Below, one piece after another: positions 13,609 through 43,950 of a stretch of 64,000 nt of DNA. A model generated the notes under the pieces. That model did no database searches. It was not told the origin of the DNA and saw only the letters and a list, made by a program, of their open reading frames with translations. Source of the DNA: Hexactinellida sp. DTS-2022 (lineage: Eukaryota; Porifera; Hexactinellida); assembly GCA_028753945.1 (NCBI GenBank), contig JAPNXP010000010.1, positions 5,211,042 to 5,275,041 of the forward strand. The letters are read 5' to 3'. How positions within the stretch are numbered: the first letter of the stretch is position 1; each line of letters opens with the position of its first letter. The translations under genes and the position numbers were made by a program.

Positions 13609-14670
13609 ATGAACTTGAGTACTTATCGAATTGATACCCTCATCCTAACCATTGTGCCTCTTCCCTTCTGCCTCATGACAGTAGGTGTACTAATCTACTT
13701 TATACGCATAAAGTACAGACTGTATCGAGAAATACGTTATGTTACTGATCAACTACTCTTAAAACAATCTTACCAAAACCATCTTAAGAATCTCAAGATA
13801 CGTTCAATAATCGCTAGTGCTATAATTGGTGTTCTAATCCTAGAATTTATTCAAAACGTGGCTTATGTGATCTACCTACTCCCTGACTGGACCATAATAT
13901 ATGGTGCAAATATAGAAATAGAATTTAAATTCCTATTTAGAATCAGAACGAATATTGAATTTCTAATCATTCCGATAAGGCTCTCGCTCGTCCCTACATT
14001 ATCTCTGTTGATGGATTTATTATGGCGGATATATAGGAAATACGGTTATAAGTATACTATTGCCAGATGGATTGTATACATAATGATAAGAGCTCTGTTC
14101 TTGTTTGTTTGTAAGTTTCTACATAATCATTGTGATGGATGTGGACCAATTGATTATCGGATGTCTCTTGATTTAATATATAATATATTAACGGGATGTT
14201 TTTACATTTTTGATTTTATTCAATTCATTCATTATTCGAGGAAATTTTACCTACATCTCAAGAGTAGAGAAAAAGAGATTCGATTATTTTATTTCGACAA
14301 AAAGGCCTATCTTGACAGCAAATTTATTCGCATACATTTTCAGGTAGCCACCACCATGGTTGTTATTTCCTTATTTTTTTTCACTTTCGGATATTCTTTG
14401 TGGGAATTTTTAGAACCTAGATTTTATTTATCTGAATTGCTAAATCAGGATATTCAAGATAATTTCGGGGTAGTATCCCAATCTATAATAAGTTATGTCT
14501 GTTTTCCATCAATTATAATATATAAAATTTTGATAAATGTTAATTATTTGTATATTGTATCAACTTTTGCTTATAAATCTTTCAGAAAGAGACAGGATTT
14601 CGCTAACATTAATTTCAATATAAGACCCCTAATTGAGAAGTATCATAATAATTTAGATAGGGTTAAATAG
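13609..14670 (+). CDS. Intact seven-helix membrane protein, 353 aa, unknown family
   Basis: Intronless; the ATG at 13609 sits just after a TATAAATA box (an in-frame TTG lies at 13603). No signal peptide. Hydrophobic helices at about 10-32, 66-91, 117-139, 154-171, 189-209, 246-268 and 292-319. Basic residues crowd into the loops after helices 1 (KYRLYREIRY), 3 (RIYRKYGYKYT) and 5 (RKFYLHLKSREKEIRLFY) and into the tail (KSFRKRQ), so the positive-inside rule predicts N-out, C-in, the GPCR topology. Most conserved among the window's copies are the third inner loop (DKKAYLDSK...HFQ) and the tail motif NIN..I.P....YH. I see no DRY, NPxxY, class B or class C signature and no extracellular cysteine pair linked to helix 3. 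A chemoreceptor-like role is inference only; a transporter or channel is not excluded. Confidence 0.85.
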   Translation: MNLSTYRIDTLILTIVPLPFCLMTVGVLIYFIRIKYRLYREIRYVTDQLLLKQSYQNHLKNLKIRSIIASAIIGVLILEFIQNVAYVIYLLPDWTIIYGANIEIEFKFLFRIRTNIEFLIIPIRLSLVPTLSLLMDLLWRIYRKYGYKYTIARWIVYIMIRALFLFVCKFLHNHCDGCGPIDYRMSLDLIYNILTGCFYIFDFIQFIHYSRKFYLHLKSREKEIRLFYFDKKAYLDSKFIRIHFQVATTMVVISLFFFTFGYSLWEFLEPRFYLSELLNQDIQDNFGVVSQSIISYVCFPSIIIYKILINVNYLYIVSTFAYKSFRKRQDFANINFNIRPLIEKYHNNLDRVK

Positions 14671-16039
14671 TATATTTTTATGTAACAGTATTATTTACTT
14701 GCTCTATTTTATATTAATTCATTGTCTTATGTAATTATATTTGAGAATTATATTATCTGCATTTTAATTGTTCAATCTCAAGACTACTATTATTTGGGAT
14801 ATTTGTATATTGCCTAGATGTGGAGACTTGTTTAAACCAAAATGCAAAATACGTAATAGGCTGAAGAATCAGGCTAGACAAATAACTAAATACAATAGTA
14901 AGATTAGCTTGTTTATGCTGCGAGCATGTTAAACTCACCTTGCTAAACTTTGATATAAATATTCTTTATATTTCTCCATTTTAGTCCCTATTTCTCATGG
15001 TCACCATCTTATTATGCTTTAGCCTAATTCTCTAAGATAACTGGCAGGCCTCAAGACATTTTCTTTCCTGGGGTTAACTACTCATATATAGATCAATTCA
15101 GTATGATAACAGGGGGACATGAGAGTAAATATACTCTCATATGGGTCCCCTCGTGCTCTAGGGCCCTGGGGAAAATTCCTTACCTATAGACTATCTCCCT
15201 TGGTGACCTGTACTTATGACATTAATTCTTAATTTCTTATTAGATTATGGATGTACCTCCGAGGTCCTGACCTCTCAACCGGGCACCCTTATTGGTTTAA
15301 ACCAAGCTAATTATGAATTAATTTAACCAATAATGGAGTTTAATGACAACATATTGTACCAAACACATATCTTAAATTTAATATCCACAATCCCTTAAAA
15401 AGATATGTTTTCATTTTTGAATGAATCTAGAAAATAAGGGTTATACACATACTTTCGGATAGCATATGTCTAGCCATTGTCTTTCTGAGATTCGGGAAAA
15501 TCAGTTACGGGTACCCTCCGGACGACAGTGCCCAGATATGGGAGTTTTGAGTGTATTATTTATTTATTATGGCGGACGCAGATATGCTAGTGATAAATAT
15601 AAAACTGTGGTCGTACTCAGCAAAAAAGAGTTAACTCGAGAGACCAACTATTTTAGATTTGATTCGCAGTTGGCTATTTCATGATACGTATATTTTAATC
15701 ACTTATACTAATGTCAAGTATTACATTATCATATTACTTGACTGCATTACTTGGTTAATTGCTCAGAAATTATATTATACATAATGAGATCACACAAATT
15801 AGCCTCAATCATTAATTAAATGGTTATCTTGTGAAAATAGACTCCACTATTTTTGCTTAGCTTGCTTTCCTAATCAAATGAGTCATAAATTACTTTGTAA
15901 ACAAAAATTCTGATAAACACTAAATCATTCCTTGAAATAAATAGTTATGTGTCGTAAATTCCTAATCTAGGAAAAAAATCATTTCAACTAATCTATAACA
16001 ATTGTGTAACGATAAATGATCAGGAGTTTCCATTGTTGG
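14671..16039. other. Intergenic between two seven-helix genes
   Basis: A short frame at 15560-15600 (tttattatggcgga then a Tyr/Lys-rich stretch) faintly recalls the RxYRKY loop of the seven-helix family but is too short to call. Otherwise unannotated, with repeat-like pieces near 15040-15190. Confidence 0.35.
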
Positions 16040-16047
16040 TATAAATA
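16040..16047 (+). promoter_or_regulatory. TATA box of the 16102 gene
   Basis: TATAAATA 55 bases before the ATG, similarly placed to those of the paralogues. Confidence 0.55.
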
Positions 16048-16101
16048 ATAAGCTTTTCATAATCTGTAATAAAATTTCAATTATTCTCCACAGTTCATGA
16101 A

Positions 16102-17148
16102 ATGTCACAACTATATAACAACAGTCGTCATGTCCATGATAAGGTTGAATCTGTAATTAGTTTGCTAATTATAATCCCCTATTCAGTTGGAGTACCAGTT
16201 GCATTAGTAAATTTCTTGATTTTGACTTATTCATCTAGATACTGGAAACAAATGAGAAATAAAGCGGAATATATAAATGATGCCAATTACAAGAAGGCCA
16301 CCATGAATTATGTCAAATTTGGTTTGGCAAGCTTAGTTTTATTGATGGAAATATTATTAGTTCTCCTATTGGCATTATCTGTAGTAATTGACTCTATACC
16401 CTGTAACATATTTATGTACTACCCACTAGAATGCAATTTAGGCTATCTGCTGACTCCTTTGATCATCGTAAGTGTTATGCTCCCAGTTTTCTTTACGAAT
16501 ATGTTATGTCTTTACTTAATACAAGTAATAACGAAATCAAATGTTGAATTTGGTGTACTCTATAGAGAAGGATGGATAACTTTCTGGGTGTGTATTACAA
16601 CATTTGGTTTACGTGCATTTGGAATTGAAATAGTGAGAGATATCGGTGCATTTCTAATCGGGGCCATTCATATCGTCTTATTCTATATCTTGTGTAAAAG
16701 AGTGAGAAAATTATACCTTTGCTTGAAATCAAAAAGTTTGGATTATTTTTATGAACCGAAAAAACATAAATATTTCCGTTCTCAAGCAACAAACTTTAAA
16801 AGGAGCTCTTTAATAGTCGTAATTTCGTTAGGAGCATTTATGATATTTAATGCAATACTTACAATGTATGAGAGTATTTTCATATTGATATCCAAAGGAT
16901 TGGGTATCATAAATATGCTTCCCACTCAATTCAACACATACCTCGAGATAATACATTATAAAATAGAAGATATTGCAGATGTCGCCTTGATGAACTGGGC
17001 ATTAATTTCCACTTTCCTAAACTTTATTCTATTGTTGGCTTTTATCAGGAAAGGTATTTTGTACAGACGCTTCATGTCTAAACCTATTCATTATAAGATG
17101 ATGTATTCAGAAGATTCCCGTATTATATATAAGAGAGTTTATTATTAA
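16102..17148 (+). CDS. Divergent seven-helix membrane protein, 348 aa
   Basis: Intronless and intact. Seven hydrophobic segments fit the same spacing as the 13609 gene (helices near 18-42, 70-98, 112-140, 153-172, 180-196, 232-255, 288-315). The third inner loop reads VRKLYLCLKSKSLDYFY then KKHKYFRSQATNFKRSSL, aligning with RKFYLHLKSREKEIRLFY and HFQVATTMVVISL of the relatives, which supports distant membership. Helices and outer loops have diverged beyond easy alignment. The tail is short and basic (SKPIHYKMMYSED). AATAAA signals follow at about 17229. Function is unknown; a receptor-like membrane protein is inferred from topology only. Confidence 0.8.
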   Translation: MSQLYNNSRHVHDKVESVISLLIIIPYSVGVPVALVNFLILTYSSRYWKQMRNKAEYINDANYKKATMNYVKFGLASLVLLMEILLVLLLALSVVIDSIPCNIFMYYPLECNLGYLLTPLIIVSVMLPVFFTNMLCLYLIQVITKSNVEFGVLYREGWITFWVCITTFGLRAFGIEIVRDIGAFLIGAIHIVLFYILCKRVRKLYLCLKSKSLDYFYEPKKHKYFRSQATNFKRSSLIVVISLGAFMIFNAILTMYESIFILISKGLGIINMLPTQFNTYLEIIHYKIEDIADVALMNWALISTFLNFILLLAFIRKGILYRRFMSKPIHYKMMYSEDSRIIYKRVYY

Positions 17149-17159
17149 TATTTGTTTGT

Positions 17160-17410
17160 AATACTACTATATATAATTATTTTGTATATAAATTTCCCAA
17201 CTAATTACTAGTGTGTAAATTATTATTAAATAAATAATAAAATATGTAAATATTCCCTAATTCGAACAGATACTGTATATTTTGATCAGAATTAATGTAG
17301 AATTTTGATCAGAAAATCAATATATAACTTTGATCAGAAAAGTCGAACTTTGATCAGAAAATGTTTAACTATGATCAGAAAATCAATGTAAAACTTTGAT
17401 CAGAAAAGTC
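17160..17410. repeat. Duplicated 3' flank with TTGATCAGAAAA tandem motif, copy 1
   Basis: Contains AATAAATAATAAAAT and then about six 'ttgatcagaaaa' units. About 200 bp match 18097-18320, so the 3' flank of the 16102 gene exists twice. Confidence 0.65.
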
Positions 17411-17592
17411 AATAACTTATAGGCTATATGACTTCGTTATAAGCGGAATTTCGTTGTATCCATTTCGTTGTAAACGAAGTTTTAATAATGTTATAAGATA
17501 CTCACAGAAGGATTTCCGAAACATTGAACGACTTTGTTATCAGCAGGTACTTCGTTATATCTGACTTGGGTATAACGGGAGTTGCCTGTATA
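17402..17592. repeat. pogo-like degenerate MITE
   Basis: Inverted blocks 'gacttcgttataagcgg' and 'ctgacttgggtataacggga' resemble the element at 3974-4131. A GC-rich G-run element follows at 17598-17635. Confidence 0.4.
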
Positions 17593-18096
17593 AGTATTGG
17601 GGGGGGGCCACGGCGCCCCCCCCCATTTCCTACGCCCCTGAGTTTGTTACTTTGTACATTAATCGACCATGTTAGACAGCGATTTTCATCCAACAATAAA
17701 AATATTTTTTTCCAATCTTGCCATTTATTCAAGCAATTTCGCCCGTTTCTTTTGATCAGTGTATAAGTACCCATAATTATACATGGATATCAAGTTCCTA
17801 TAGTAATAATTTATTGAATTCATGAGCAAAGAGCGCTCCTCAAATTATTGACCTCACTCCCGCTCCGCGTTCTTTGTCTCAAAAAGGAACGCACTCTCAT
17901 TCATAGGCGCCGATCTTTGCTGGACAAAGGTTCTGCCTCGGGGAGCCGACTTCTGGGGGTCAATTTTTATTGCATATAAAAGACTTGGTTTTCGGATCCT
18001 GGGTGTCCGGACACCCACTGCCTCGAGGAAATGAAGCGGTGCTTGGAGTGACACCCACTACACCCACACCTCATAATACATGGCGCCGGCAATGTC

Positions 18097-18320
18097 TATA
18101 TATAATGATTTTGTATGTAAATTTCCCAACTAATTACTACATAGTATGTAAATTATAATTAAATAAATAATAAAATATATAAATATTCCCTAATTCGAAC
18201 AGAGACTGATATTTTGATCAGAATTAATGTAGAATTTTGATCAGAAAAGTAGAACTTTGATCAGAAAATTAATATAGAAGTTTCATAAGAAAATTAATGT
18301 AGAATTTTGATAAAAATATG
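18097..18320. repeat. Duplicated 3' flank, copy 2
   Basis: Matches 17160-17340 closely (atttcccaactaattact, attccctaattcgaacag, ttgatcagaa). No seven-helix coding sequence precedes it, so either only the flank was copied or the gene part was lost. Confidence 0.6.
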
Positions 18321-18471
18321 GAGTTAGATTAAATAGTAACTCTTATATGGGTCATGGGAAAAGTTGACCTTTTTGAAAAGTGTCGTATGGTACCTAGCGG
18401 AAAAGATAAAGTCGAGGTGTGCATAGAGTGTATCCATTGTTTAAAAAATTCAGAATCCCATTGAAAAGAAC

Positions 18472-19036
18472 CAGGGTTGGGTTCAAGTACAATTTACTTA
18501 AGTACTTCTGTAATTAAGTACATTTTTTGAGTACTTGTACTTGTACTTAAGTACTTTCACCATTTTTCCGTTGTACTTGTACTTGTACTTAATTACTTTC
18601 CTCATTTTTCTAAAGTACTTGCACTTGTACTTGAGTACTTGTTACTCGTGACTTTTTTATCATTCAATATATTTCCAACACACATCATTGATGTTCCTCA
18701 AATCCCATCTCAAATCAAGTAGTGTTACTTAATACTTAGTATATTAGGAATTGTGTTCGTGTCAAGGACTACTGCTAAATCAATTAAATAGATTTGGATG
18801 ATACTATATAAACTATGTATTTAGCAATTTCTACTATTAGTACGAGAGATTTATCATAAGAGCTTGGGAAGTACTTGTACTTGTACTTAAGTATTTTCCT
18901 AATTTTTTCATTGTACTTGTACTTGTACTTAAGTACTTTAAGTTTACCTGTACTTGTACTTGTATTGTACTTGAATATCTGAAAAGTAGTAGTACTTGTA
19001 CTTAAGTACTTTCAAATGTACTTGAACCCAACCCTG
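18472..19036. mobile_element. hAT-type element, 565 bp, TSD AAAAGAAC
   Basis: Starts CAGGGTTGGGTTCAAG, ends CTTGAACCCAACCCTG; AAAAGAAC stands on both sides (18464-18471, 19037-19044). The subterminal regions are filled with GTACTTGTACTTAAGTACTT repeats. No coding region. Confidence 0.85.
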
Positions 19037-19253
19037 AAAAGAACACAGGCGGGTTCTGATGTGTGTTCTAAGGCCCAGAGAAAGACGCAACCTTATGTGA
19101 GTGTGTCGAATTGGAAAGAGGGAAAACACTGGCGTTCTGAGTGAGAGGAATGGCTCAGGAGAAAAGAATCGACTTTCTAAGTGTCTGTTATATATATAGG
19201 GGGAAACACTGAGATATATAAGTGTCTTCTATGGAGAGATTTTGTTATCTGAA

Positions 19254-19657
19254 CAAGGCTGGACTTGGTGAACCGGCTAACCGGTAAACCGTTGCGAATA
19301 TCGTTACAGATTTTATCAACCAGTTAGCCGATTTGTTGGAATCAGCAGTGTAATTTGAAATTACTGTGTAAAATATAAAATTATCTGAATTTTGTTAAAA
19401 AATAATTATTTTTTAACAAAATTTCCAACATTACAATATCAATTTTCTGTAAGAACATTGTTTCTAAGTTACCTAAAGTACCAAATGTATCAGTTCATGT
19501 ACCTTGGAGGTAATACTTTATAAAGCGAGTTATAGTACTATTATCAAAAGTATTTATATGTTATAATTAAAGATTTGATGGGCGGTTAACCGGTTAACCG
19601 TGGCGAGAAATCGAATCGTAACCGTAGCCTCAGAATGGTTAACCAACCCAACCCTTG
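19254..19657. mobile_element. 'CAAGGCTGG' foldback-type element, copy 1
   Basis: Starts CAAGGCTGGACTTGG, ends CCAACCCAACCCTTG, with GGTTAACCGG motifs near both ends. The flanks match in 6 of 7 bases (ATCTGAA/CTCTGAA). Further copies are at 25796-26208 and 33973-34406. Confidence 0.65.
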
Positions 19658-19698
19658 CTCTGAATAATGATAAACATAATGGTTTAAAATTACAAATA

Positions 19699-20587
19699 CA
19701 GTAGACCCTCGCTAATGCGAACAACGATGTTTTGATGTTTTTCTGTTCCTATTAGTGAACTCGTTGGGATTAGTGAAGTGCACATTTCTATAGGCATCTA
19801 TGAAATGAGAAGCTCGATAATCAGAACCAAAATTCTCCAAACTTTTTTAATCTGAAATTTTGAACAAAATGTCTAGAGCACTACTTAAAATGCTTGTCTG
19901 AGACTTATTTTTATACTACTTATCTATATTATTAAATTTCGATTGTTGTGTGTGTGTGTGTGTGTGTGTTTGTGTGTTTGTCCGGATTGTATTAAGGTGA
20001 TGGGGGAATAGAAACCGCAATTAATATTGGATATAAACTAACTTTCAAATGTCATACTAGGTAAACAAGTAAGCTGATTTCGAATTTCGCATTTACAAAT
20101 TCTAATATGAATATTTATTGTTGTTGTTTACAAAAAGAAGTAAACTAATTAATGAAAATTCAAAATCGACCTAGAAGTTAGCTTTGATCGGGTATCATAA
20201 GTAACAAGTATGCTAAACCCGAATTTCGCATTTACAAATTCTAATATGAATATTTATTGTTGTTGGTTACAAAATAGATAAACAAATTAATTAAAATTCA
20301 AAATCATAGCGAACCTTTTTTTCTACCATTTTCCATGGCAGAAAGGTGGAGTAAGGCTGCACAGTGGTCGTTAACTTGAGTCGCAAAGCGACCGAGACTG
20401 AATGGCTCGTATTTATATATACGTACGTATCAGGGCCGGCGGAAGCATTTATAAAGTCGTCAGGCCATTGCCTGACCCCTCCGCCGCCCCTGCGTATATA
20501 TAATACATACATTCCCCACTATTTTTATAATAATATTTTGGATTTCCCCCTCGGATTGGGGAAGTTCGGATTAACGAGGGTCTACTG
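19699..20587. mobile_element. pogo/Tigger-like MITE with a nested Helitron-like copy
   Basis: Ends CAGTAGACCCTCGCTAATGC and GATTAACGAGGGTCTACTG are inverted. The left flank is TA, the right TG (decayed). A Helitron-like repeat (19921-20410) sits inside. Confidence 0.7.
19921..20410 (+). mobile_element. Helitron-like repeat nested in a pogo-like MITE
   Basis: Begins TATCTATATTATTAAAT with a TGTG run, ends GTCGCAAAGCGACCGAGACT then GGCTCGT. Same two conserved ends as the copies at 54419, 61594 and 45441. Confidence 0.5.
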
Positions 20588-21180
20588 TGTGATCCTTTTA
20601 GTTTTTGCATTAACTGCTGATATGAATCTTTGAAGGTATGTGGCATGAACTTTAATAATCATAATATCCAAATTTCTGCTTCACAATTCCTTATAAAAAG
20701 TATAATTGTCAATTTGACCATAAGGCCATAACTTTATATCTTGACTGTATTTTACCCTACTTTAGTGTACTTTCGATTTCGATATTAGTCTATGTCAGCG
20801 TGTATTTTATCAAACTTACTCAATAGTTATATTGTGAACAAATTGAGATAATTACTACTAGAACAAACAAGCTTAGTAATGCTTTATTATATTTTATTTA
20901 GTTTACTACGTAGTTATTATTTGCAGATAGTAGAAAAAAATACCTAAACTTATAACTAGTCTAGGTAATAATTATTGATCTAATTTTGTTAATTAAGATG
21001 AAACACGATAGGTAAATCTTTAATCTTTCCAAGAAACATTAAACCTCAAAGAAGAAAATCTATTATCAGGGCAACTAGCAGACTATATGCATGATGCAGG
21101 TTGTAATTAGGTTCACTTTCAAAGTTAGAGTAATTACAATATCCTATACAACTCAGGTAGTTGAGTTGTTGACTAAGTAG

Positions 21181-21188
21181 TATATAAA
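21181..21188 (+). promoter_or_regulatory. TATA box of the 21231 gene
   Basis: TATATAAA 42 bases before the start codon. Confidence 0.5.
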
Positions 21189-21230
21189 CTGTTGTATTTG
21201 ACTCAAAACTAACCAAGAAAATAAACTGAA

Positions 21231-22292: not shown

Positions 22293-22399
22293 TACTCCTC
22301 TTAGCATCTGTTTGTCTCGTACATTGCGCTTTACATTAATTACTGCTTTAATTAATTAATTTGTGCTATTTTATTAAATATAACGCCTCAAATAAACCA

Positions 22400-23107
22400 G
22401 ATTTTCTTATTTTTAATTACTATTTGCAAAGGTTGGGGATTATTTTCATATCTTAAATAACTTGTTTAGTTTGTTAAACAATTTTAAAACGTCAAATTCC
22501 GATTTACAGAACAAAAATAGAATAGTTAAAATAATAAATATAAGATAGCCAGGACTGGAAACAGGAATTTCTGTTACGGATGTTCAGCATTAAGTGCTCC
22601 TCCCGCTCCTCACAAAAAGGAGCGCATACGCATTTCCGCTCCGAATTATCAAAAGGAGCGCGCTCCTTTGGTATTTGCCAGGATAGCGGTTAGGATATTC
22701 ACATACCGCATCATCAGATCCCGAATGGTGCATTTGTACCCGAGAAATGTCTAATGGGAGTTTGGACGAAAAAAATATTTGTTTATCTAATCTTTTTGGT
22801 TTTTAACTTTTTATGGCTTAAGAAAAATCCAACAACTAATGGGCAAAAATTCGTAAAAATAATTATGAATATAATTTATCACAAATGTTTATAGAAAGTT
22901 GGAGCTTGCTATACCTTTCGCTCCTTAGAAACAAAGCAACAAGATTTACCTCCTTACCTAGTCTTTCTTTAGAGATCGTATTATTATATTTTCCTAAACT
23001 AGCAATTAATGGATCAAATAAGAGTTAAATGAAGTAGCTAAATTGCTGGTAAAGAATGTCATTAACATTAACAGCATTTGTAATCCTTAATTAATAATGG
23101 AGTGACA
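22400..23107. other. Intergenic, AT-rich
   Basis: Includes a short GC-rich repeat near 22600-22690 with paired AGGAGCGC/GCGCTCCT motifs. No gene seen. Confidence 0.35.
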
Positions 23108-23116
23108 GCCAAATGT

Positions 23117-25026
23117 GGGGCTGACTGAATAGTGGAATCTAGTGGAATCCAGTGGAATCTAGTGGAATCTAGTGGAATCCAGTGGAATCTAGTGGAATCT
23201 AGGGTGACTGAATGGTGGAATCCAGTGGAATCCAGTGGAATCTAGTGGAATTACTAAATTTTAGTGGAATTGACTGAACGGTGGAATCGAGTGGATTTTC
23301 TAAAAACCGACTGAACAGTGGAATCGAGTGGAATCTTAGACTGAATAGTGGAATCGAGTGGAATTTGACTGAATAGTGGAATCGAGTGGAATTTGACTGA
23401 ATAGTGGAATCGAGTGGAATTTGACTGAATAGTGGAATCGAGTGGAATTTGATTAAATTGTTAAACACTACGTATATGCTATAAGCTACGTGTGTATCAT
23501 ATTACGTTAATTTTCGCCCATGTAAAATTGTTTGCAATGATTAAACTAGTGTTCTGCATGAAGTGGCACAATATGATACTATATTAGCATTCTTACTAAT
23601 CATCTCTATTGAACTGCCCAATGAATACCAACTGGATTTGATAAGGAATTGTTGATAAATAATGTTAATAAGATGTGTCTAAGTAACATGGTAACAAAGC
23701 CTAACTAATAAATCCTATTGTGTCACTTCATGTACTTCACTTCATGCGAAAATTAACGTAATATGATACACACGTAGCTTATAGCATATACGTAGTGTTT
23801 AACAATTTAATCAAATTCCACTCGATTCCACTGTTCAGTCGGTTTTTAGAAAATCCACTCGATTCCACCGTTCAGTCAATTCCACTAAAATTTAGTAATT
23901 CCACTAGATTCCACCATTCAGTCACCCTAGATTCCACTAGATTCCACTAGATTCCACTGGATTCCACTATTCAGTCAGCCCCCACTCAATGCGTTTATAC
24001 TTGTAGTATAAAAAAGAGAATAATTTGTGTATAATTTAACTACGTATTAGAAAATACACATGATTTTATTATCAGCTTTAATTCGAGTGTAATAAGGACA
24101 GTAGGGTGTGCACTTGCAAGTGTGAATTTTATGTGCACGACTGGCGCGGCGCCAGGGGGGCAGCCGCTCACCCTAAGTTTAAATGCTGACCCCCTGCATG
24201 GGGGTCAGGATTTAGGGTATTCTCAAGTTAAAATCATATCTGCCTGATAACTTATCCCAGGCTAATCCTTGGACTCATGCCAAGAATTCCCTGGAAATTG
24301 ACTCATTCCCCTGGACTGCCGGGCTGCGGCATCCTACCTCGCAGGCTCGTACTGCCCATGTGTCCTTCCACATGGTTACCAGTCGTACTGACACTTGTTT
24401 ATCTATAATAACATTTGAATGTTAGTTTCTAGCTCAATGTTAAAAACGGTTTCCAAACAAACAAATAAACAAACAAACAAACTAACACACACACAACAAA
24501 TCGTGTTTTAATAATATACGTATAGATATAAATACAGTCGCCTCCGCTAAATATTAGTCACCGGTTAATAGAGTTCTCAGTTTAATGGGGTCAAAATTTC
24601 ACAGGATTTATAGGACCGAATGACAGTTTGGCTTAAAATATTTTCAGTTAATAGATCTCTCCGCTTAATCTGGTCAAAGTAGCCTGGTCCCGAGGTTACT
24701 TATTAAGCGAAATCGACTGCAATTAATTTTTTCTCCAAATTATGATTTTAATTAGTTAAATTGTTCAAGGAATTATCCAGGAGCTCGAGACTCCTTTTGG
24801 AGAATGATTCTTAATTAATTAATAAAGCCAGCATTCGACTATATTGCACAAATATTAAGTTATAGCTTAAATTACTCCCGTTTAAATGAAATCGGATATT
24901 ATATCGTATTAGTTAATTGGCATGATGACACTAGATTCCACTAGGTTCCACTAGATTCCACTAGATTCCACTGGATTCCACTAGGTTCCACTAGATTCCA
25001 CTAGATTCCACTATTCAGTCAGCCCC
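23117..25026. mobile_element. Foldback element of GTGGAATC repeats, 9-bp TSD GCCAAATGT
   Basis: Outer ends GGGGCTGACTGAATAGTGG and CCACTATTCAGTCAGCCCC are inverted, with GCCAAATGT on both sides (23108-23116, 25027-25035). A 9-bp duplication is typical of Mutator-like elements. The arms are tandem runs of about 10-bp units (gtggaatcta / gtggaatcga); a longer inverted pair lies at 23440-23520 and 23745-23815. The 0.9-kb composite repeat at 24022-24932 is nested inside. Open frames over the arms are repeat peptides only. Confidence 0.72.
24022..24932 (-). repeat. 0.9-kb composite repeat, copy B
   Basis: Inverted counterpart of 8050-8975, including the pogo-like MITE (24535-24719) and the Helitron-like fragment (about 24415-24530). 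It lies inside the GTGGAATC foldback element. Confidence 0.75.
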
Positions 25027-27950: not shown

Positions 27951-29003
27951 CTAGTAAATAATTCCATGGTACTGACTAATGATGGGCCTGATCAAGTTGT
28001 TTATATTTTTCAATCTCTCTCTGTCTCTGAAGGATTTGTAAACAACAACAAAAAAAATATACAAATAGTTCAAAGTAAATGCAAATTTACAAATTATTAG
28101 CGGAAAACTACCAATAAAATCACGAAATAATTCATATATAACTTGAAAATTATGGTTCAATTTTGACGATATAGGGATGTAATAATAAATATGACTAAAT
28201 ATATTGAATATATAAATAGAGCTACATAAAGTAAAGAAGAAGAGAGCTATTGTTACCAATATAGTTGCTATTTTAAAGTGTATGCGAAGGTATTTAGCGT
28301 CAAGATAGGCATAATTATTTGTCAAAGTAGAATATTCGAATTTCTTTTTCTCTGCTTTTCAGATGAAAGTAAAATCTTCTGGCGTAATAGACATATTGTA
28401 TATAATCAATTGTGCGCATTATTGCTATAATAATATTGCATGCATCATTATAGATATACGTGTACGTATGTAAAAATTGTATTATTTGAGCTATTATATT
28501 ATAAAAATATCTCATTAGAAAAAGAAACAACGCTCTCATCACTATGTAGTACGTCCACCTAATGAGTGTATGTCTGTAGCGTACTTCCTATATGCCAACC
28601 ATAGGAAATTCATTAGCAGACACAGTACTGGGACATATACAAATTGCGTTGGGAATAAACACCTTGCTGCAAAATTTGAAAATTTAATTTCGCTTAGATA
28701 ATTAAATTAGGTTTCATTCACAAATGATGTGATCATATGGGGAAAAAAGATAATTATTAATGTTATATTTTGTACAATTTCAATTACTAGTAATATTACA
28801 ATAAAATTATTGATTATGCATTTAATTTTAGGTTCTTATAAGATTGCTTATAAAGAAGTTCCTGTGGAATCAGTTTAATTTCTCGATACAGTTTGTATCT
28901 CCTCCGTACGTAGTACACGAATAAGAACACCACTCAATAAGAACAATGGTAAAGGAACAGTAGTGTCCATTGAAAAATCGACTGTTAGAATAGTGTAGAT
29001 CAT
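27951..29003 (-). pseudogene. Seven-helix family member, decayed full-length copy
   Basis: Minus-strand relic with pieces from helix 1 to the tail in order: PLPLFLLSGVLI, then a shift to YYVRRRYKLYREIK, a damaged loop ending in stops (about 28810-28830), LLMNFLWLAYRKY, MMRALFLF, YARRFYFHLKSREKEIRIFY, and after a 4-base insertion near 28318 AYLDAKYLRIHFKIATILV through NINNLIRPIISQYH. It needs at least four frame corrections and crosses several stops, so it is dead. A TATAAATA box (minus strand, 29086-29093) remains about 85 bases upstream. Nearest relatives in the window are the 42871 and 62568 copies. Confidence 0.85.
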
Positions 29004-34548: not shown

Positions 34549-34941
34549 TATTATACTAGTAGGCATTTTGGTGGCACAATTATATTGGGTGCGGCCTGTG
34601 CCCCAAGTGCCGCACCCTGGCTACGCTCTGAAATTTAAGCGCTGTTCAATTTTGGGACCTCCTTGTCTTAAAAAGAAGCATTTGGATTATAATTATAATT
34701 TTTTGACCGCCTACGTATAAGAAAGCTCGTACATTTAACTCCACTATATTAAATTGATAGGTTGAAAATAAAATTTAATAAATAAATAAAGACCTACAAA
34801 TAGGACTATTCCATTACTAGTATTAACAGAACCAATTGGTAAATTCTATATGAAATAACAAATTAATACTGAAAAGAGTAAATAATATTCAAGTGACATG
34901 ACAATAGAAATAGTTCATACACTACTACGAAATAGAAATTT

Positions 34942-36213
34942 CTAAAAGAATTGCAACCTACCCATGTCTTTCTGACAAACGACAATAATTCTTCCAGAAC
35001 CATCCAATGCAATACCCCAGGGATAAATAAACTCGCCAATACCCTGACCGTTCTTCCCAAACTTGTGTATTTGTTTACCATCCTCACTAAACACATACAC
35101 ACAGTGGTTACTGTAGTCCGTGATAATAATATTATACTCTCGATCTATGTCGAAACAGTTGGGATTAGTTGCTTGTTTACCATTACCACGGGTTATTAGT
35201 CTCTTGATTAGAACGTGTTCTGAATCGAATACAAATATACACGGATTACTTTGGTCTAGCACCAATACTCTATCTCGTGTAGTTTTAATATCACGTGGAT
35301 AATTAAACACACCGATTCCTAGCATGGAATGGAATATGAGATTATTTGTGAAGATTTGGACTCTGTTATTATTACAATCGCACACATAGACATTGTTAGT
35401 TCTAGCAGAGACATCTACACCGTGTGGACTGCTGAACTGAGCTTCTCCACATCCATTTATACCAACACTATGGATTAGTTTGCCTTCTAGATCGTACAAG
35501 TTAACACAATGACCACTGCACTGTGTGACATACACTCTATCTTGTATGATACAAATGCCTCTTGGGGAATTCATCTTCTCGTCGAACTTGCGAAGATAGT
35601 CTCCGTTACTGCCGAACACTTGTACTCTGTGGTTATTCTGATCCGCTATGTAGACATGTCCAGTCTTGTAATGCACTGCTATGCCTCTAGAAACATTAAG
35701 TTCCCCTGGAGCTTTCTGTTCGTTAGACTTCCTGCAGCAGTAAGCTGTAGGCAGTTGTTTCGCCTTGTAGTCGGGCACTACAAGTTTAACTTTAGGAGAG
35801 AAGGTGCGGGTGGGAGATGTGGTAGTCTGATCATTAAGCTTAATGTTCCCCAGCTGTTCAATGTCAGAATAGAATAGAGTATCCCACTCAAACTCAATGC
35901 TACTGTCTGTGGACTCTTTCAGTTCTGAGATTCTACTGTCGAACAGCTGCATCACTCCATCGCGGGTAATCATTAGCTTTTGAGCTGTGAGAGTAGTAGA
36001 GCTGAAAGATTTAGTTTTGTCAAGCGCTTCGAACAGCTCCTCCAGCTCCTCTGTTTTGGCTATATACTCACTCTCTATTTGGTCTATTCGGGAGAGTAGG
36101 GTGTCCTCTCTCGTATGGAGAGCCTCGTGAGAACGCTGGAAACTGTGCCGAATATTTTCACGAGCTAGTGTCAGTTGTTCAGGGAAGTTAGTGTATTCTT
36201 GAATGTCAGCCAT
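34942..36213 (-). CDS. Coiled-coil plus NHL-repeat protein (TRIM-NHL-like without RING), 423 aa
   Basis: One exon, ATG at 36213 (a longer frame starts at TTG). Residues 10-105 are charged and helical (SRIDQIESEYIAKTEELEEL) as in the coiled coil of TRIM proteins. Residues 173-423 make a six-bladed NHL propeller, about six blades of 40 residues (about 173, 216, 262, 302, 350 and 394), with clear cores such as GHVYIADQNNHRVQVF, NNVYVCDCNNNRVQIF and IIITDYSNHCVYVF. Neither RING nor B-box precedes the coil, so there is no E3 zinc site; binding of RNA or protein through the propeller is the known theme of NHL proteins. The frame is intact. A TATA-like sequence at 36226-36235 lies too close to the ATG to be its normal promoter. 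Confidence 0.88.
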   Translation of the reverse strand: MADIQEYTNFPEQLTLARENIRHSFQRSHEALHTREDTLLSRIDQIESEYIAKTEELEELFEALDKTKSFSSTTLTAQKLMITRDGVMQLFDSRISELKESTDSSIEFEWDTLFYSDIEQLGNIKLNDQTTTSPTRTFSPKVKLVVPDYKAKQLPTAYCCRKSNEQKAPGELNVSRGIAVHYKTGHVYIADQNNHRVQVFGSNGDYLRKFDEKMNSPRGICIIQDRVYVTQCSGHCVNLYDLEGKLIHSVGINGCGEAQFSSPHGVDVSARTNNVYVCDCNNNRVQIFTNNLIFHSMLGIGVFNYPRDIKTTRDRVLVLDQSNPCIFVFDSEHVLIKRLITRGNGKQATNPNCFDIDREYNIIITDYSNHCVYVFSEDGKQIHKFGKNGQGIGEFIYPWGIALDGSGRIIVVCQKDMGRLQFF

Positions 36214-37129
36214 CAAACAGTATCTCTATTTATAGAATAAAATAATGAGCTTCGGTTTCGTTACATTGCAATTTGTAACTCAGTCACTATGGGTATGCCT
36301 AATTTCCGGGACCGTCCCGGAAATCCAGATACCTAAAGTACGGGAGGGGACAGGTAGTAGTAAATTATTAATTACGATTACATGGACTAAAACAGTTGTT
36401 TTTAAGGTTGCAGTATACTTCCAAATTTTCCACTTTCGGGTACTTTGCCACTTATAGGTTTTATATCATTTCTGGATTGAACAGCCTATGCCGCATCTCT
36501 ATTCCAAATTTTGTATAGAAATATTGAAAACCTTTAATAATACCGACTTTTTTGTGACCTCCACCTAAGCCACTCCTGTAGGGGGTCATTTTTTTCTGAC
36601 CCCGCCATCTCCAGTCGCAACTTTTGTCGATTCAGGATACCCATTTTGGCTCATATACAACCTAGAAACAAAATCTCAACGGTTTTGGACAGCTATCAAC
36701 GAGTTCTATCATGTGATTACAGGGATTTCATTAGTAACATTTCTTTCTAATTTTATTAGATTTCTTAATCATAAAAAAGTGATGTCCACTGTTATTGATG
36801 AAAAATTGGACTCATAAGTAATCAAAAGAAGTTGTATATCCACATGTTAGATTAGAAGCTTCTCTATGTAATAAAACAGGAAACAAGTCTTAATCATTAA
36901 CTGGTGGGGCATGGATCATTGCCTTTGTGTAAATATAAATTCTGAGAACTTAAAAGAGTCTATATGTCAATAATACTTCACTTTTGAGTCGATATATTTC
37001 ATTCAACTAATTATGGACATCCTCATGAGTCATGAGTCATGTTCCAATTTTGAACATTTATAACGCGTTTAACTATGTAAAAAGCAGGCTATAAAAACAC
37101 GATAATTCCCACGGAAAATGAGGTAACAA
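36214..37129. other. Intergenic
   Basis: Contains a short palindrome TTTCCGGGACCGTCCCGGAAA at about 36302 and a GC-rich patch (36540-36620). No gene seen. Confidence 0.35.
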
Positions 37130-37410
37130 AAAGTACACAGAGCATGCTCATAAGGTACACAGAGCATGCTCATAAGGTACACAGAGCATGCTCATAAGGT
37201 ACATAGAGCATGCTCGTATAAAAGTACATAGAGCATGCTCGTAAAAGTATACATAGAGCATGCTCGTGAAAGTACATAGAGCATGCTCGTAAAAGTACAT
37301 AGAGCATGCTCGTAAAAGTACATAGAGCATGCTCGTATAAAAGTACATAGAGCATGCTCGTATAAAAGTACATAGAGCATGCTCGTATAAAAGTACATAG
37401 AGCATGCTCG
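37130..37410. repeat. Tandem array of 12 GAGCATGCTC palindrome units, left arm
   Basis: Units of about 20-25 bp (gtacacagagcatgctcataag, later gtacatagagcatgctcgtaaaa). The inverse array is at 40690-40863, so both may be arms of one 3.7-kb element starting AACAAAAAGTACACAG. Frames across it give only repeated CSMYF peptides. Confidence 0.75.
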
Positions 37411-37436
37411 TAAAGATCAATGATATTTACTCTAGT

Positions 37437-38490
37437 ACAGTGGCGTGGCCAGGGGGTCCAGCCGGGGCCAGGCCCCGGGTAGCGCAGCTCAGGTCCCGGT
37501 TGTCGCACCTGGGGTGGAGCCCCACCTTCTCAGTATTTCAACTTTCGGAACCTGCTGAAATACATAGTCAGGGCCTGCTGCAAAGGGGGATCCAGACAAG
37601 AAGGGGTGCAATTATATTATTCATGGGTACTGCCCTATTATTGTTCAAACCTAGCTTAGTAAAATCTAAATACTCTCATATTTTCTCGAGCATTTTTTTC
37701 AAATAAGTGCAACCTCTATTATCCGAAATCGTTGGAACAAGTACAAAGGGTTCGGATAATCGAGGTTCCGCTATACATAGATCACTATGTATTGGGATAG
37801 CAGATTAGGACCTGATACCATTGGGCATGATCGGCTATTCGAATTTCGCATACTCAAGATCGCGTCGTCTACGATCCCTAAATTACATGTAATTATAACT
37901 AGATCACTACTGGGGCGGATCCAGGATTTACTAGAAGAGGGGGTTGTGGCTTCCAGGGCGAAGCCCCTGAAAGCTATAAAAAAAAGCGTGCTATTCGACC
38001 AAATTTCAATACTTAACAGATGCTATACTCAGTAGATTATTCTGGACGTCGGAAATTAACAGGACATATGCCACACTGTACCCCAAGGAGCGGACGTTGT
38101 TTCTTTGGATGGTCCACTTTCTCAACAAGGGTTTGGAGGCCCCTATTGTGTCGAGGTATGCTAAGGGAAATATGTGACCCTAAGACCAAACATCTACAGT
38201 GCCCTACCAAAAGAATTTGTACTCTCCCGAAAAATTCTTCATTGAAATTAATCATTCGCAAGGATGTCTAAATTCATGCAAAATAGATTTGATGTTGAAT
38301 TAACTCGCACAATTAACTATAAAGGCTGCGCACTATGACATAATTATTAGTGTGCTTCTTCTAGTAAAAACGTTATAGTAGGGTCCTACTTTAGTTTTAT
38401 ACTATAAGTGCACAGTATTGAATTTTAAATCTGTCGGACTTCCGTACGCGATGGCCTGACTATACCATTTGGAATGACTGTTATTATTAT
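37437..38490. other. Gene-poor, hAT- and pogo-like fragments
   Basis: CAGTGGCGTGGCCAGGGGG at 37439 is a hAT-like left end. 37711-37773 is a small pogo-like element (GCAACCTCTATTATCCG...). GGGGCGGATCCAGG at 37914 is another hAT-like end. Short frames here are not supported as genes. Confidence 0.4.
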
Positions 38491-38494
38491 TATT

Positions 38495-38646
38495 AGAGAA
38501 TACTTATCCACCGATCATCGGCGTTTGTATTAAAAAAGCTCGCTACTTTCTACTGATGATGTTTTTTATAAACATAAAAAAACAATCGGTAGAAAGTAGC
38601 GAGCTTTTTTAATACAAACGCCGATGATCGGTGGATAAGTATTCTC
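38495..38646. repeat. Near-perfect 63-bp-arm hairpin (snap-back MITE)
   Basis: Left arm AGAGAATACTTATCCACCGA... and right arm its reverse complement, about 28-bp AT loop. Flanks are TATTATTAT on both sides, a possible duplication. Confidence 0.75.
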
Positions 38647-38649
38647 TTA

Positions 38650-39528
38650 TTATTATGCTAGTTGTTTGTAAGTGAATATGTGTTTCATAAGAAACACTTG
38701 AAACATTTTACAATGTTAATGATTCAAAATATAGTAACGTAAATACCCGCGAATTCCTATTTCTATTTGTAATCATTAATCTTACTTTAATTAATTAAAG
38801 ACTATTCTTATTTGGAAGTCTTTATGATTCAAACATTAATTAATTAAAATTATATTAAAATAAGATGAAATGTAATTTGAATTCTATTTAAATCCTTCCT
38901 TGTATCTACAATGCAATACTATTCAAGGTTTGAAAATCAACCAGAAGAAGCACACTCCCATCCCGTCTGTAAGGGTTTTTTGAAAACATGAGTACTCTAT
39001 CTTTCACAAAAATACAGTAGAGAGATAGAGAGCGGACGGAAAATCTAAACAACTTTATTCCTATTATTGTATTACAATTAGTTGGAATACAATATTACTA
39101 TTCATTGACTCACTCACCAGGGTTATTGATTATATTCTTATCCATTAATTTAAATGCAGATGTTAAGTGTACGACTAGTTTGGTAGGGTAGGGTATAAAA
39201 AACACATGGAAGAGAAGGTTAAATTTGTTTCGGTAATCTTAGACTTAAATATTAGTAAATGTCAAAATATTCACATAGTACATATACTATTACTACTATA
39301 TGAGGAGCAGGTGCAGCAGGTGCGGGCTTGGCCGCAACAATATTTTAGGTAGCCGCATCAATATTCTGGTAGCATTTATGTCACACTGAGATTCAATAAC
39401 TCGACGTCACTTCGCCGCACCAATAATAATTGGCTTGCTCGAGCATGTATGAGATTGTTATAAATAATGGAAGGTAATTATTGTATCTGGAACTAATGTA
39501 CACTAATAACGAGAGTTGTTGTGATTAG
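38650..39528. other. Intergenic, AT-rich
   Basis: No gene or clear repeat recognised; contains GGTGCAGCAGGTGCGG near 39310. Confidence 0.35.
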
Positions 39529-39529
39529 T

Positions 39530-39561
39530 ACCACACAACAACCGCTAAGCGGTTGTTGTGT
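39530..39561. repeat. Short palindrome
   Basis: CACAACAACCGCTAAGCGGT and onward reads as an inverted repeat with 15-base arms. A cruciform, or the relic of a tiny MITE. Confidence 0.6.
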
Positions 39562-39820
39562 GGGTATTACAGGTCTGGAAGCAACTCAGCAAGCGTAGCG
39601 CGCTAGTATAATAAAATATTATAGCTAAAATTACTTAGTAGTATGGGATGCCGTATCCCCTATTATTATAATGAATGATTGCATGACTAGTACCAGCAAG
39701 AACAATAATGCTTTGGTAGTTAACATAAACTCTGTTAATTTTTTTACCGGGGTTATACCCGCAGGCCCCCATTCGATCGATCGCTGGATTTACCTTTGAC
39801 CCCCCTAGATTTTATTCTGG

Positions 39821-40439
39821 CAGGGACGGATTAGGGTTGGTCGGGGCCCGCGGCATATTTTCATCGCGGGGCCCCTTGATCGTATTGCAAACGAATAATA
39901 TTGCCGATTTTTGCTCACGGAATGCTGAGTTTTGGTGGGATGGTTCATGGAGTGCAAGGGAAAATTTCCCTTACTCAGAAAATATTTAAGATTAAACGCA
40001 GTTCCTTTTGTCCCCTACTCCATTAACATTTCACCTGTATCTTTACTTGTAAGGAAATATACATCAGAGTTTAGTCTGATATTCAATGTACTTGTCTAGT
40101 GCATGACACATGCCTAATAATATCGAATATAAAAATTAAAAAATTACTGTTTTCTAGTTAATCTACATACATAGATATACTTTTAGGTAAAATCTGGCTG
40201 ATTGTGAAAATAATAATAAACCTTATCGTGGGTCTTCTAAAAGTTATGTTTACGGGATTTCACAGGAGCAAAAAACGCGGGACAAAGAGACTATGTGGTA
40301 GTATACTCAACTGTGACAAATAAAGTTAGTCCATCGATTACGAACATTTTTTCAAAAATGAAAACTACCCACCGCGCGGGGCCCAAAAATACAAAAGCGC
40401 GGGGGCCCCGGCATCTGCCGTATGGTAAATCCGGGCCTG
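39821..40439. mobile_element. hAT-type element, 619 bp, TSD TATTCTGG/TATTTTGG
   Basis: Starts CAGGGACGGATTAGGG, ends GGTAAATCCGGGCCTG; the flanking octamers differ at one base. GC-rich ends (GGGGCCC), AT-rich middle, no coding region. Confidence 0.75.
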
Positions 40440-40689
40440 TATTTTGGCCACGCCGTGGGTGAGTGCCCCAAGTGTGCCCAGGTTGGCCTCAAGGTCTGGC
40501 TACGCCACTACCCTAATATAATAATCACAAGTATAATATTTACTACTTATGAATTGCGTTCCAATTTGATACACACTTATAGCAACACTTATAAAAATAA
40601 TACACGTCGTAATAATTGTAGCATTATTTTAGAACATCTATATTAGATCTTATTAAGAATTGAATATATTTCCAAATTCGCATTTATTT

Positions 40690-40863
40690 GTATGCTTTTA
40701 TACGAGCATGCTCTATGTACTTTTTACTAGCATGCTCTATGTATACTTTTACGAGCATGCTCTATGTACTTTTATACGAGCATGCTCTATGTACCTTATG
40801 AGCATGCTCTGTGTACCTTATGAGCATGCTCTGTGTACCTTATGAGCATGCTCTGTGTACTTT
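40690..40863. repeat. Tandem array of 7 GAGCATGCTC units, right arm
   Basis: Inverted relative of 37130-37410, ending GTGTACTTTTTGTTA as the left arm begins. Confidence 0.7.
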
Positions 40864-40907
40864 TTGTTATATGCGGAAAATAGCGATTACGTAATCAAAT
40901 GGTGATA

Positions 40908-41020
40908 CAGTAGACTCCGCTTAATCGGGACACCAGGTAATCGGTTTCTCCGCTTAATCGGGTCAAAATTTCACCGGATTTATGGGACGGAATTACAATT
41001 TGGCTTAAAATATTTTCGGT
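40908..41020. mobile_element. pogo/Tigger-like MITE fragment
   Basis: CAGTAGACTCCGCTTAATCG with TA at the left; close to the 8249 element; the right half is missing. Confidence 0.5.
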
Positions 41021-41268
41021 TTGTCATATTATAGTACATGTAAATGGTGAATGAAGTGATATTACAAAATTTCAATATTCAATTAATTTCTCAGATCATC
41101 CAAATAAATAACAAATCGTCAAATAAATTCAAAAAACAACATAAAATAATTTGAATCAATTTTCAAGTCATTTCCAGATATCTAGGTGCCTTTTCGAAAT
41201 AAATAAAGTATTGAGAAAACAACATCAACAAATAATACAAAATTGGATATCAAGTGGCTGGTGACACT

Positions 41269-41667
41269 CAGTGGCGTAGCTAAGGTTTCGGGGCCCCGGT
41301 TCAAACACATTTTGACGAAGTATGATCGAAGTATATCTGATATCTGCATATGGATAATTTTGGAACCTTTCAGCATACCTGCCAACCGTACAGGGATTCC
41401 CTGTACAGTATATAATTCAATGCTTTGTCCTTTCCAAAGTGATAATATTTATATCTAAGTGTATAGTAATTCCCTGGACGAGCGAGCGCAGCGAGCGAGA
41501 AAAATTTTTGGGAGGTGTACAGGGATTTGGCCAATGTACAGGGGAAAATTGGAGCCCTGTACAGGAATATGACTCAAATAGGTTGACAGGTATGCCTTTG
41601 GGGGCCCCCGAGACATCGAGGGCCCTGGTTCAATGAACCGCCTGAACCGCATATAGCGACGCCTCTG
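41269..41667. mobile_element. hAT-type element, 399 bp, TSD GTGACACT
   Basis: Starts CAGTGGCGTAGCTAAGG, ends ATAGCGACGCCTCTG; GTGACACT on both sides (41261-41268, 41668-41675). A 'CATACCTGCCAACC' repeat (about 41377-41595) is nested inside. Confidence 0.85.
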
Positions 41668-42690
41668 GTGACACTCACTAACACAGATAGTACTGAAATG
41701 TCCTTTACTAGTATTATTTAAATTAGTATAATGTATATGAGGGGGAAAGTAGGGGGGCTGAGCCCCCCCCCTATTTCAAAAGTAGGGGGGCTATAGCTAA
41801 GGTGATCAGATGGCTTTGACAGAAAACCTGAACATCCTGGACTCTCTAAGCTCATATGTACTTACCAAGTTACAGTCAGATATGTAAATATGGAACTAAA
41901 TGACGTGTTATTAATATATAGCAATCTTTAGCTGGGAATATGAATGAATTTAAGGTACTTATAGCTGATGGCCCATTTTTTACCCCAGTTGAGTTAGATT
42001 GTGGGACATTTTGATTTATCCTGACAATAATATACCATAGAATATTCCAGAGTAAATTCTGAACGACTAATTATGGACTTCCAGTCATGGGCATAAAAAA
42101 TTGCAGCGTTCTGAATAACTTTATTCGGACATACAATAGAAACTTGGCTAAATATTATTGCCTCTCTCCTTTATACAATTATACGACCTAGGTTATTACA
42201 ATTATACAACTTAGGTTTATACAATTAATTATACGACTTAGGTTTATACAATTATGCGACTTAGGTTTAACGGTTTTAACTTCTAAGTTCCTTGCTGGGT
42301 TAATTAATTAATAAAATATTTTATTTTTCAAATAAATAAAAATCGGAGTTTTTTATTTAAATCTGATTTATGTATTAGATTAGTGAATAATTTTATATGC
42401 ATTGATCTATTTTTGGAACCACCCATGATTATTATCCACATATGTTAAAGATTCGTAGTTTGAATTTACTCTATTGATTATTTCCAGGCGCATTAATTTT
42501 TATTTTCCCATATGAATCGAGGTAAGTTAGACAATTCGAATTGTCTGTAACAAGTGGTTGTTGTTTGAATTAATTTGTGGTATGCATACTTGATGACATC
42601 CTTTCGTAAGATTACTAAGAAGGATAATTTGCATTGTGATGTGTGTAAACTGCTTTAGGTATAGTTTCAAGTTGGGAAATGCAAATGTTG
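41668..42690. other. Gene-poor, with a short tandem repeat
   Basis: 42171-42272 holds about four units of 'tatacaattatacgacttaggtt'. A G/C-run repeat is at 41740-41800. No gene seen. Confidence 0.45.
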
Positions 42691-42806
42691 GTTAAGTTTC
42701 TGGTTATTAGGTAAGTAATCTAATTTTTTTGGCACATAATAGTTTGTCCATAAGAGTATTAAATAGAAACCACACTTTTAATCAGATGGTGTTCGTGTTC
42801 CTAGAG

Positions 42807-42814
42807 TATATAAA
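42807..42814 (+). promoter_or_regulatory. TATA box of the 42871 gene
   Basis: TATATAAA 57 bases before the ATG; the same box and its surroundings are preserved at 63708-63715 in the inverted copy. Confidence 0.65.
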
Positions 42815-42870
42815 TGTTGGATCTCTCTCAATATATTTATACCAGCATATAAAACAATCGGATTATCATC

Positions 42871-43950
42871 ATGTCCATGTACAAATATGAAAATATCCTA
42901 TTCACCGTTTCTGAAGTAGAAAGCCTCGTGTTCTCCTTAGTCCTTATCCCATTCTGTCTACTGACTCTATTTACATTGGTGTACTACGTACGGAGAAGGT
43001 ACAAACTGTATCAGGAGATTAAGAGGGTTCCACAGGAAATGCTAATACTGCAATCATATAACAATCATCTTAAAAATCTTAAAATAAAATGCTTCGTCAA
43101 TAATTTCATAATTGTAATTCTAGTTTTAGAATTTGTGCAAAATATCAGTGTAGTAATATACTATCTTCCTTATTGGGTATTGATATTTGATGCGGACAAC
43201 CAAACCATTTTCCCTTTCATATCTGCGCTCAGACATAAAACTGGTTGGTTACTATTCACTATAAGATTTGCAGTTGTCCCTGTGCTTTCTTTTCTGATGA
43301 CGTTCTTATGGCTCGCCTACAGGAAATACGATTATAAATATACTATAATTCGGTGGATAGTTTACATAATAGTAAGGACTTTGTTGTTACTGTTTCTAAA
43401 TATTATTTTTTATAATCCCATTTTCTCAAGCGCTTATCAATCGAACTTTGAAATTCTCTTCGGAATGTTGAGAATATTCATCTTTATTTATGACTATATA
43501 CAATTTCTTTATTTGTCCAGAAAGTTCTATTTGCATCTGAAAAGCCGTGAAAAAGAAATTCGATTATTTTACTACGACAAGAAGGCCTATCTCGACAGCA
43601 AATATCTCCGAGTACATTTCCAGGTTGCAACCACTTTGGTAGCGATTGCACTCTTCTTTTATACTTTAGGATTATCAAATTTATTTGCTCCGATCGCTTC
43701 ATTTTTGGATTATTTACCAATTCCTCTCCATATTAAGAATGGAATCGATTTGTTCGCATTTTCCATGGAATTCTTTGTATACGTACCTTCACTAATCCTC
43801 AGTAATGTATTGTTTACTGTTAACTATTTGTATATATTTGTTGTTGTTGTTTACAAGTCATACAGAGACAAGCAAAAGATGGAAAATATAAACAGCTACA
43901 TCAAGCCCATCATGATACAGTACCATGAAAGTGTTTATAACAGATATTAA
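42871..43950 (+). CDS. Intact seven-helix membrane protein, 359 aa, unknown family
   Basis: Intronless, intact, ATG 57 bases after a TATA box, AATAAA at about 44003. Same plan as the 13609 gene: seven hydrophobic segments (about 16-40, 74-98, 125-148, 164-183, 197-217, 255-279, 301-328), basic inner loops (RRRYKLYQEIKR; AYRKYDYKYT; SRKFYLHLKSREKEIRLFY) and a tail YKSYRDKQKMENINSYIKP. The loop after helix 5 is nearly identical to that of the 13609 protein while helices and outer loops differ, a pattern expected when the cytosolic face binds a shared partner and the outer face diverges. No known GPCR signature is seen. An inverted near-copy with one stop lies 19 kb away. Receptor function is inferred from topology only. 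Confidence 0.85.
   Translation: MSMYKYENILFTVSEVESLVFSLVLIPFCLLTLFTLVYYVRRRYKLYQEIKRVPQEMLILQSYNNHLKNLKIKCFVNNFIIVILVLEFVQNISVVIYYLPYWVLIFDADNQTIFPFISALRHKTGWLLFTIRFAVVPVLSFLMTFLWLAYRKYDYKYTIIRWIVYIIVRTLLLLFLNIIFYNPIFSSAYQSNFEILFGMLRIFIFIYDYIQFLYLSRKFYLHLKSREKEIRLFYYDKKAYLDSKYLRVHFQVATTLVAIALFFYTLGLSNLFAPIASFLDYLPIPLHIKNGIDLFAFSMEFFVYVPSLILSNVLFTVNYLYIFVVVVYKSYRDKQKMENINSYIKPIMIQYHESVYNRY

Follow-up and report, generated by a model that had tools for sequence, protein, structure and literature searches.

A family of intronless genes in the glass sponge Hexactinellida sp. DTS-2022 probably encodes cell-surface receptors with a fold like that of G-protein-coupled receptors (GPCRs), each binding a different external cue and all sharing a common cytoplasmic partner. 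The window analysed is a stretch of 64,000 nucleotides (contig JAPNXP010000010.1, positions 5,211,042 to 5,275,041, forward strand), in which a first-pass annotation made from the sequence alone had pointed to an undescribed receptor family. It contains intact genes starting at positions 13609, 16102 and 42871, by which they are named below. The outer face of the proteins is diversifying in a recent expansion and the inner face is constant, as expected of receptors for many outside signals. The cues would be dissolved chemicals or molecules carried by microbes or adjacent cells, each copy binding its own within the outer half of the helix bundle; the signal would pass via the shared inner face (third and first intracellular loops and tail) to the common partner, for which a heterotrimeric G protein is the simplest candidate. 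The genome does contain G-alpha genes. The first-pass observation is confirmed and its interpretation borne out in part; the receptor role is better supported than the first reading could show.

Family membership and predicted membrane architecture

A search of the genome (112.4 Mb in 18 contigs, the window lying on contig 2) with the 13609 protein gave 60 matches, and chaining the search through more distant members joined further clades. Matches on the same strand and no more than 700 bases apart were merged by position; copies whose open frame runs for 330 aa or more without interruption were counted as intact. The resulting 83 loci comprise 55 intact copies, spread over 13 contigs, and 28 broken or partial ones, all counts being lower bounds, in agreement with the birth-and-death pattern proposed earlier. 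At the weak end of the count stand a fragment (E 0.0087) and C11:595624, one of the 55 intact copies (E 0.0024); a fragment on contig 9 at E 0.057 was excluded. The translation of one locus, L037, seems to drop the family frame near the C-terminus.

Forty-nine of the 55 intact copies were retrieved and aligned. They form five clades, for each of which a FastTree tree with midpoint rooting gives a support of 0.69 to 1.0: A (30 proteins, including 13609 and 42871), B (3, including 16102), C (8), D (6) and E (2). Significant scores tie clades A, C, D and E together; a search from clade D, for example, reaches a clade A member at E 2.4e-9. A whole-genome search with 16102 returned itself and two others, and the profile link of clade B to the main family (hhalign probability 14%, E 0.0019) is confined to some 40 residues in the third inner loop. 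When 93 reversed or shuffled sequences served as controls in a hidden Markov model (HMM) search, one clade B member came top (E 0.039, best shuffle 17), the second was not distinct (E 19) and the third was not among the best 12. Clade B resembles the main family in length and layout; because its link consists of this likeness, the 40-residue stretch and one marginal HMM score, it is kept as a possible sister family. The single family of the first-pass annotation stands for 13609 and 42871 (45% protein identity), and clades A, C, D and E belong together; 16102, which shares only 19–21% identity with the other three window copies compared, is a possible member at most.

Clade A is predicted to be a seven-helix protein with the N-terminus outside, as was first proposed, by three signals: hydropathy with loop charge, glycosylation sequons and the side of diversifying selection. 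The mean hydropathy of its 30 proteins has seven segments. Lysine plus arginine residues (K+R) per loop average, from the N-terminus, 1.4, 10.1, 1.9, 3.5, 0.1, 9.3, 1.5 and 7.3; the inner loops are basic, as had been noticed, and by the positive-inside pattern the alternation places the N-terminus outside. N-glycosylation sequons number 30 outside and 5 inside, against 22 and 13 expected from composition. Inner loops 1 and 3 are about 41 and 42 residues long and outer loop 2 about 8. The mean profile of clade B also has seven segments, with a similar but weaker K+R alternation.

Both conserved elements described earlier, the RKFYLHLKSREKEIRLFY stretch in the third inner loop and the tail motif NIN..I.P, were found in place, and eight third-inner-loop positions are kept in 40 to 44 of the 49 aligned proteins across clades. 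In clade A a single cysteine is conserved; it lies in the first transmembrane helix (TM1), and the outer loops have none. An AlphaFold2 (AF2) model of the 42871 protein, built on four sequences and of low confidence, is GPCR-like, and most of the solved structures closest to it in shape are class A GPCRs; a GPCR-like fold of the family is thus suggested with low confidence. In a viral structure library a herpesvirus GPCR ranked first (E 0.069), from which nothing is concluded. Insect odorant and gustatory receptor (OR/GR) structures are absent among the structural matches listed for the model, which shows nothing either way.

Positive selection outside and constraint inside in the A1 expansion

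The outer loops and outer helix halves of the A1 set are under positive selection, while the inner face, chiefly the third inner loop, is constrained. A1 comprises 15 recent clade A paralogs, with the near-duplicate L011 dropped and pseudogenes excluded; the mean synonymous divergence (dS) is 0.119 with L011 included. Omega was estimated with a codon-likelihood model written for the analysis (GY-type, F3x4). A single omega over all sites is 1.32. With four partitions on a shared tree, omega is 2.74 in the outer loops, 1.94 in the outer helix halves, 0.62 in the inner halves and 0.41 in the inner loops and tail; twice the log-likelihood difference (2dlnL) from one omega is 367.9 (3 degrees of freedom), and omega = 1 is rejected for the outer part (2dlnL 110.8). 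Model M2a is favoured over M1a (2dlnL 276.1), and of 44 sites with a posterior above 0.95, the outer loops hold 29, the TM segments 11 in their outer and 3 in their inner halves, and the inner loops a single one.

Since gene conversion can mislead a shared tree, each partition was also given its own tree. Omega for the outer part is then 2.14 (p 8e-8), or 2.25 without the second extracellular loop (ECL2); the third loop, ECL3, alone gives 2.61 (p 0.0004), the TM outer halves 1.87 (p 0.0003) and the inner part 0.34 (p 2.5e-6). Simple pN/pS counts (proportions of non-synonymous and synonymous differences) agree in direction, with 1.38 outside, 0.35 inside, 1.04 in the TM segments and 0.14 in the third intracellular loop (ICL3), the most constrained part. 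A yardstick free of any codon model was taken from the 87 of 105 A1 pairs with at least 250 aligned flank bases: outer pN (mean 0.189) exceeds flank mismatch (mean 0.087) in all 87 pairs and inner pN (mean 0.034) lies below it in all 87. A helical-wheel test of the selected sites in TM5 (p 0.043) is too weak to use.

Probable receptor role, comparable known families and competing explanations

In Pfam scans of 26 distinct family proteins (reported to E 10 in some runs and to E 1 in one), the curated cut-off was never reached and no GPCR model, including PF00002 and PF00003, and no chemoreceptor model was matched; the best score, DUF5408 at E 0.009 in 1 of 15 proteins, is not meaningful. A sequence search of the PDB with two alignments and one protein gave no meaningful match, and HMM comparison did not link the family to the genome's own class A receptor (L001) or to L002, a weak 7tm_1 match. 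Viral and prokaryotic contigs were also scanned by pattern; each set yielded 134 hits, of which none was confirmed as a relative, and no comparable family was found described in the open-licence literature. The absence of a known GPCR sequence signature, claimed at first pass, is borne out; a tie to the GPCR clan appears only as the tentative predicted fold and not in sequence.

Elsewhere in the genome, 8 candidates scored against PF00001 gave one match above the cut-off and one weak match, both outside the family loci. There are 71 matches to PF00002 and 19 to PF00003, none on family loci; all these counts are lower bounds read exon by exon, so that one gene may yield several matches. Class A receptors are very few in this genome, if this is not a search artefact. 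L002 holds two neighbouring look-alike open reading frames (ORFs) on opposite strands, L002:1291-2421 (-) and L002:144-956 (+), one of which is the weak 7tm_1 match; by eye we take the pair to resemble cAMP-receptor/GPR157-like seven-transmembrane (7TM) proteins.

Several points weigh against a GPCR-like receptor role. No sequence-level link to any GPCR was found in the Pfam, PDB or HMM comparisons. Hallmarks of class A GPCRs are the DRY, CWxP and NPxxY motifs and a cysteine at the top of TM3 paired with ECL2; no equivalents of the three motifs were seen among the conserved columns (at least 70% of the 49 aligned proteins, inspected by eye), nor do outer cysteines follow the class A pattern, the conserved ones in 14 of the 16 proteins of clades C, D and E being placed in ECL1 and ECL3. 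AF2 may be prone to give any 7TM chain with its N-terminus outside a GPCR bundle learned in training. The clean seven-segment count is confined to the mean profiles of clades A and B: clade C has nine candidate segments, while clades D and E have seven arranged differently, with one segment in the TM4–TM5 region and two around TM6; single-protein scans, which are noisier, give exactly seven in 25 of 49 proteins and 6 to 10 in the others. With separate trees, omega of ECL1 alone is 1.63 (p 0.059), and that of the TM inner halves is 1.28, not different from 1 and not below it, so the shared-tree test overstates the contrast between the helix halves. The flank mismatch of 0.087 is understated because only BLAST-aligned stretches were counted and gaps left out. 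In clade D omega is 0.71 outside and 0.34 inside, so the burst of positive selection is demonstrated only in A1. The family evolves in the chemoreceptor mode (not implying homology), with intronless copies, clusters, pseudogenes and outer-face selection, the last limited in that omega of the outer part exceeds 1 in A1 but not in clade D.

Like class A GPCRs (PF00001), the family has a predicted seven-helix N-out bundle, and most of the solved structures closest in shape to the low-confidence model belong to that class; it differs in the missing Pfam match, motifs and disulfide positions, and in the long first inner and short second outer loops of clade A. It likewise has no sequence or Pfam match to the bitter taste receptors TAS2R (class T). 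A TAS2R review treats intronless genes as a hallmark of retroduplication, whereas the copies described here spread with their promoter. In the sponge Amphimedon, GPCRs were gathered by matches to the Pfam GPCR_A clan (PMC4302439); 126 Rhodopsins were counted there, against one PF00001 match above the cut-off here (a lower bound, exon by exon). The sponge Rhodopsin groups AqRho-A to -E of Amphimedon are likewise expanded receptor sets without clear orthologs elsewhere; the method, as set out there, would miss a family such as this one, because its scanned members match no Pfam GPCR model. In choanoflagellates, new GPCR families that lack known relatives have been reported, Remi-Sans-Famille and GPRch1-3 among them (PMC12716839); the present family resembles these, by description only, as a 7TM family outside the known GPCR classes.

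Other explanations share part of this evidence. Receptors for self/non-self or microbial recognition, that is, an allorecognition or immune repertoire on a 7TM scaffold instead of sensors of dissolved cues, are unlikely but deserve consideration: diversifying outer loops fit polymorphic partners as well as chemicals, and five copies stand in tandem on contig 2, 2.7 to 3.1 kb apart. The 49 aligned chains, however, are mostly membrane helix with short outer loops and leave no room for a separate adhesion domain. Positive selection on surface loops is also known in transporters and in surface proteins abused by pathogens, so the selection result does not separate a sensing receptor from another outward-facing 7TM protein in an arms race. 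This explanation is judged rather improbable, since the eight kept third-inner-loop positions, the strong constraint on that loop in A1 and the GPCR-like model fit a shared signalling partner better. A ligand-gated 7TM ion channel related to insect OR/GR (the 7TMIC superfamily) would share seven helices and chemoreceptor-like birth and death of genes; a split TM7 and a cytoplasmic anchor domain are further marks of that superfamily, on which the low-confidence model gives no firm reading. Such a channel is very improbable: the N-terminus of clade A is predicted outside by three signals, while 7TMICs are recognised by an intracellular one (PMC9998090), and none of the 26 scanned proteins matched a Pfam chemoreceptor model.

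The family spreads by DNA-level duplication, the TATA promoter travelling with the gene. Between -100 and -25 from the ATG, TATAWA occurs in 19 of 20 lineage representatives, compared with 23 out of 220 control windows from upstream sequence (Fisher p 1e-15, an optimistic value because the representatives still include related pairs), which agrees with the TATA boxes reported at first pass; the representatives were picked among copies with 1 kb of upstream sequence, with one copy for A1. Since the TATA regions are duplicated with the gene, the copies move with their promoter, which retrocopies would lack. Dispersal over 13 contigs would suit the cargo of a mobile element, as would three dispersed loci that, compared at 8 kb, have about 2 to 3 kb in common at about 85 to 93% identity. 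The ends of these shared stretches vary from pair to pair, though, the inverted repeats in the one 8-kb locus scanned are weak with none at the ends of the shared stretch, and the inner loops of the ORFs are constrained relative to the flanks. On these comparisons mobile-element cargo and retrocopies were set aside, the chance of either being slight indeed.

Receptors for diverse external cues thus remain the probable role. A bolder claim, possible but doubtful at present, is that the family forms a new class of GPCR-fold receptors, a main chemical or self/non-self repertoire of an early-branching animal, whose ligand face has lately gone through a burst of positive selection. If true, a repertoire for external cues would have evolved independently of the known chemoreceptor families. 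About 55 intact genes missed by Pfam profiles would change the GPCR count of a genome with a single PF00001 match above the cut-off. The family offers concrete, testable candidates for the detection of outside cues by an animal possibly without neurons, and its recent paralogs are a natural data set for mapping selected outer sites against a fixed inner surface.

Copies and neighbouring features in the window

The window holds six copies, three intact and three damaged, as the first-pass annotation had listed; the intact ones are single exons of about 350 residues, again as listed. TATA boxes are from the TATAWA scan.

~8959..10330 (+): clade A copy, broken: cut short, with stop codons and inserts
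13569..13574 (+): TATA box at -40 of the 13609 ORF
13609..14670 (+): intact single-exon 7TM ORF, clade A, 353 aa
16040..16045 (+): TATA box at -62 of the 16102 ORF
16102..17148 (+): intact 7TM ORF of 348 aa in a single exon; subfamily B, of which the genome search gave 3 copies
~27952..28985 (-): old decayed copy, 15 stop codons in the aligned frame
42807..42812 (+): TATA box at -64 of the 42871 ORF
42871..43950 (+): intact 7TM ORF of 359 aa in a single exon; clade A, in the recent A1 expansion; the protein that was modelled
62568..63644 (-): clade A copy, complete in length but with a single in-frame TAG at codon 100

Over 626 bp the DNA of the broken copy at 8959..10330 matches that of the 13609 copy at 93% identity. 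An inverted pair of about 930 bp (8048-8978 and 24015-24928, 93.8% identity) has one member ending about where this copy starts and is possibly a repeat element whose insertion truncated it. A G-/C-rich insert with long homopolymer runs (10064-10270) lies near the C-terminal end of the same copy.

Between the copies at 42871 and 62568, a 393-aa open frame (56826-58007, +) contains a GPS-like stretch and, after it, a match to 7tm_2 (45 bits against a cut-off of 20.6); it is apparently the last exon of an adhesion-type GPCR. More 7tm_2 matches occur on both sides of it on the same contig. The window also contains a 423-aa ORF with NHL repeats (34942-36213, -) and an intact single-exon choline/carnitine acyltransferase ORF of 676 aa (5550-7580, -).
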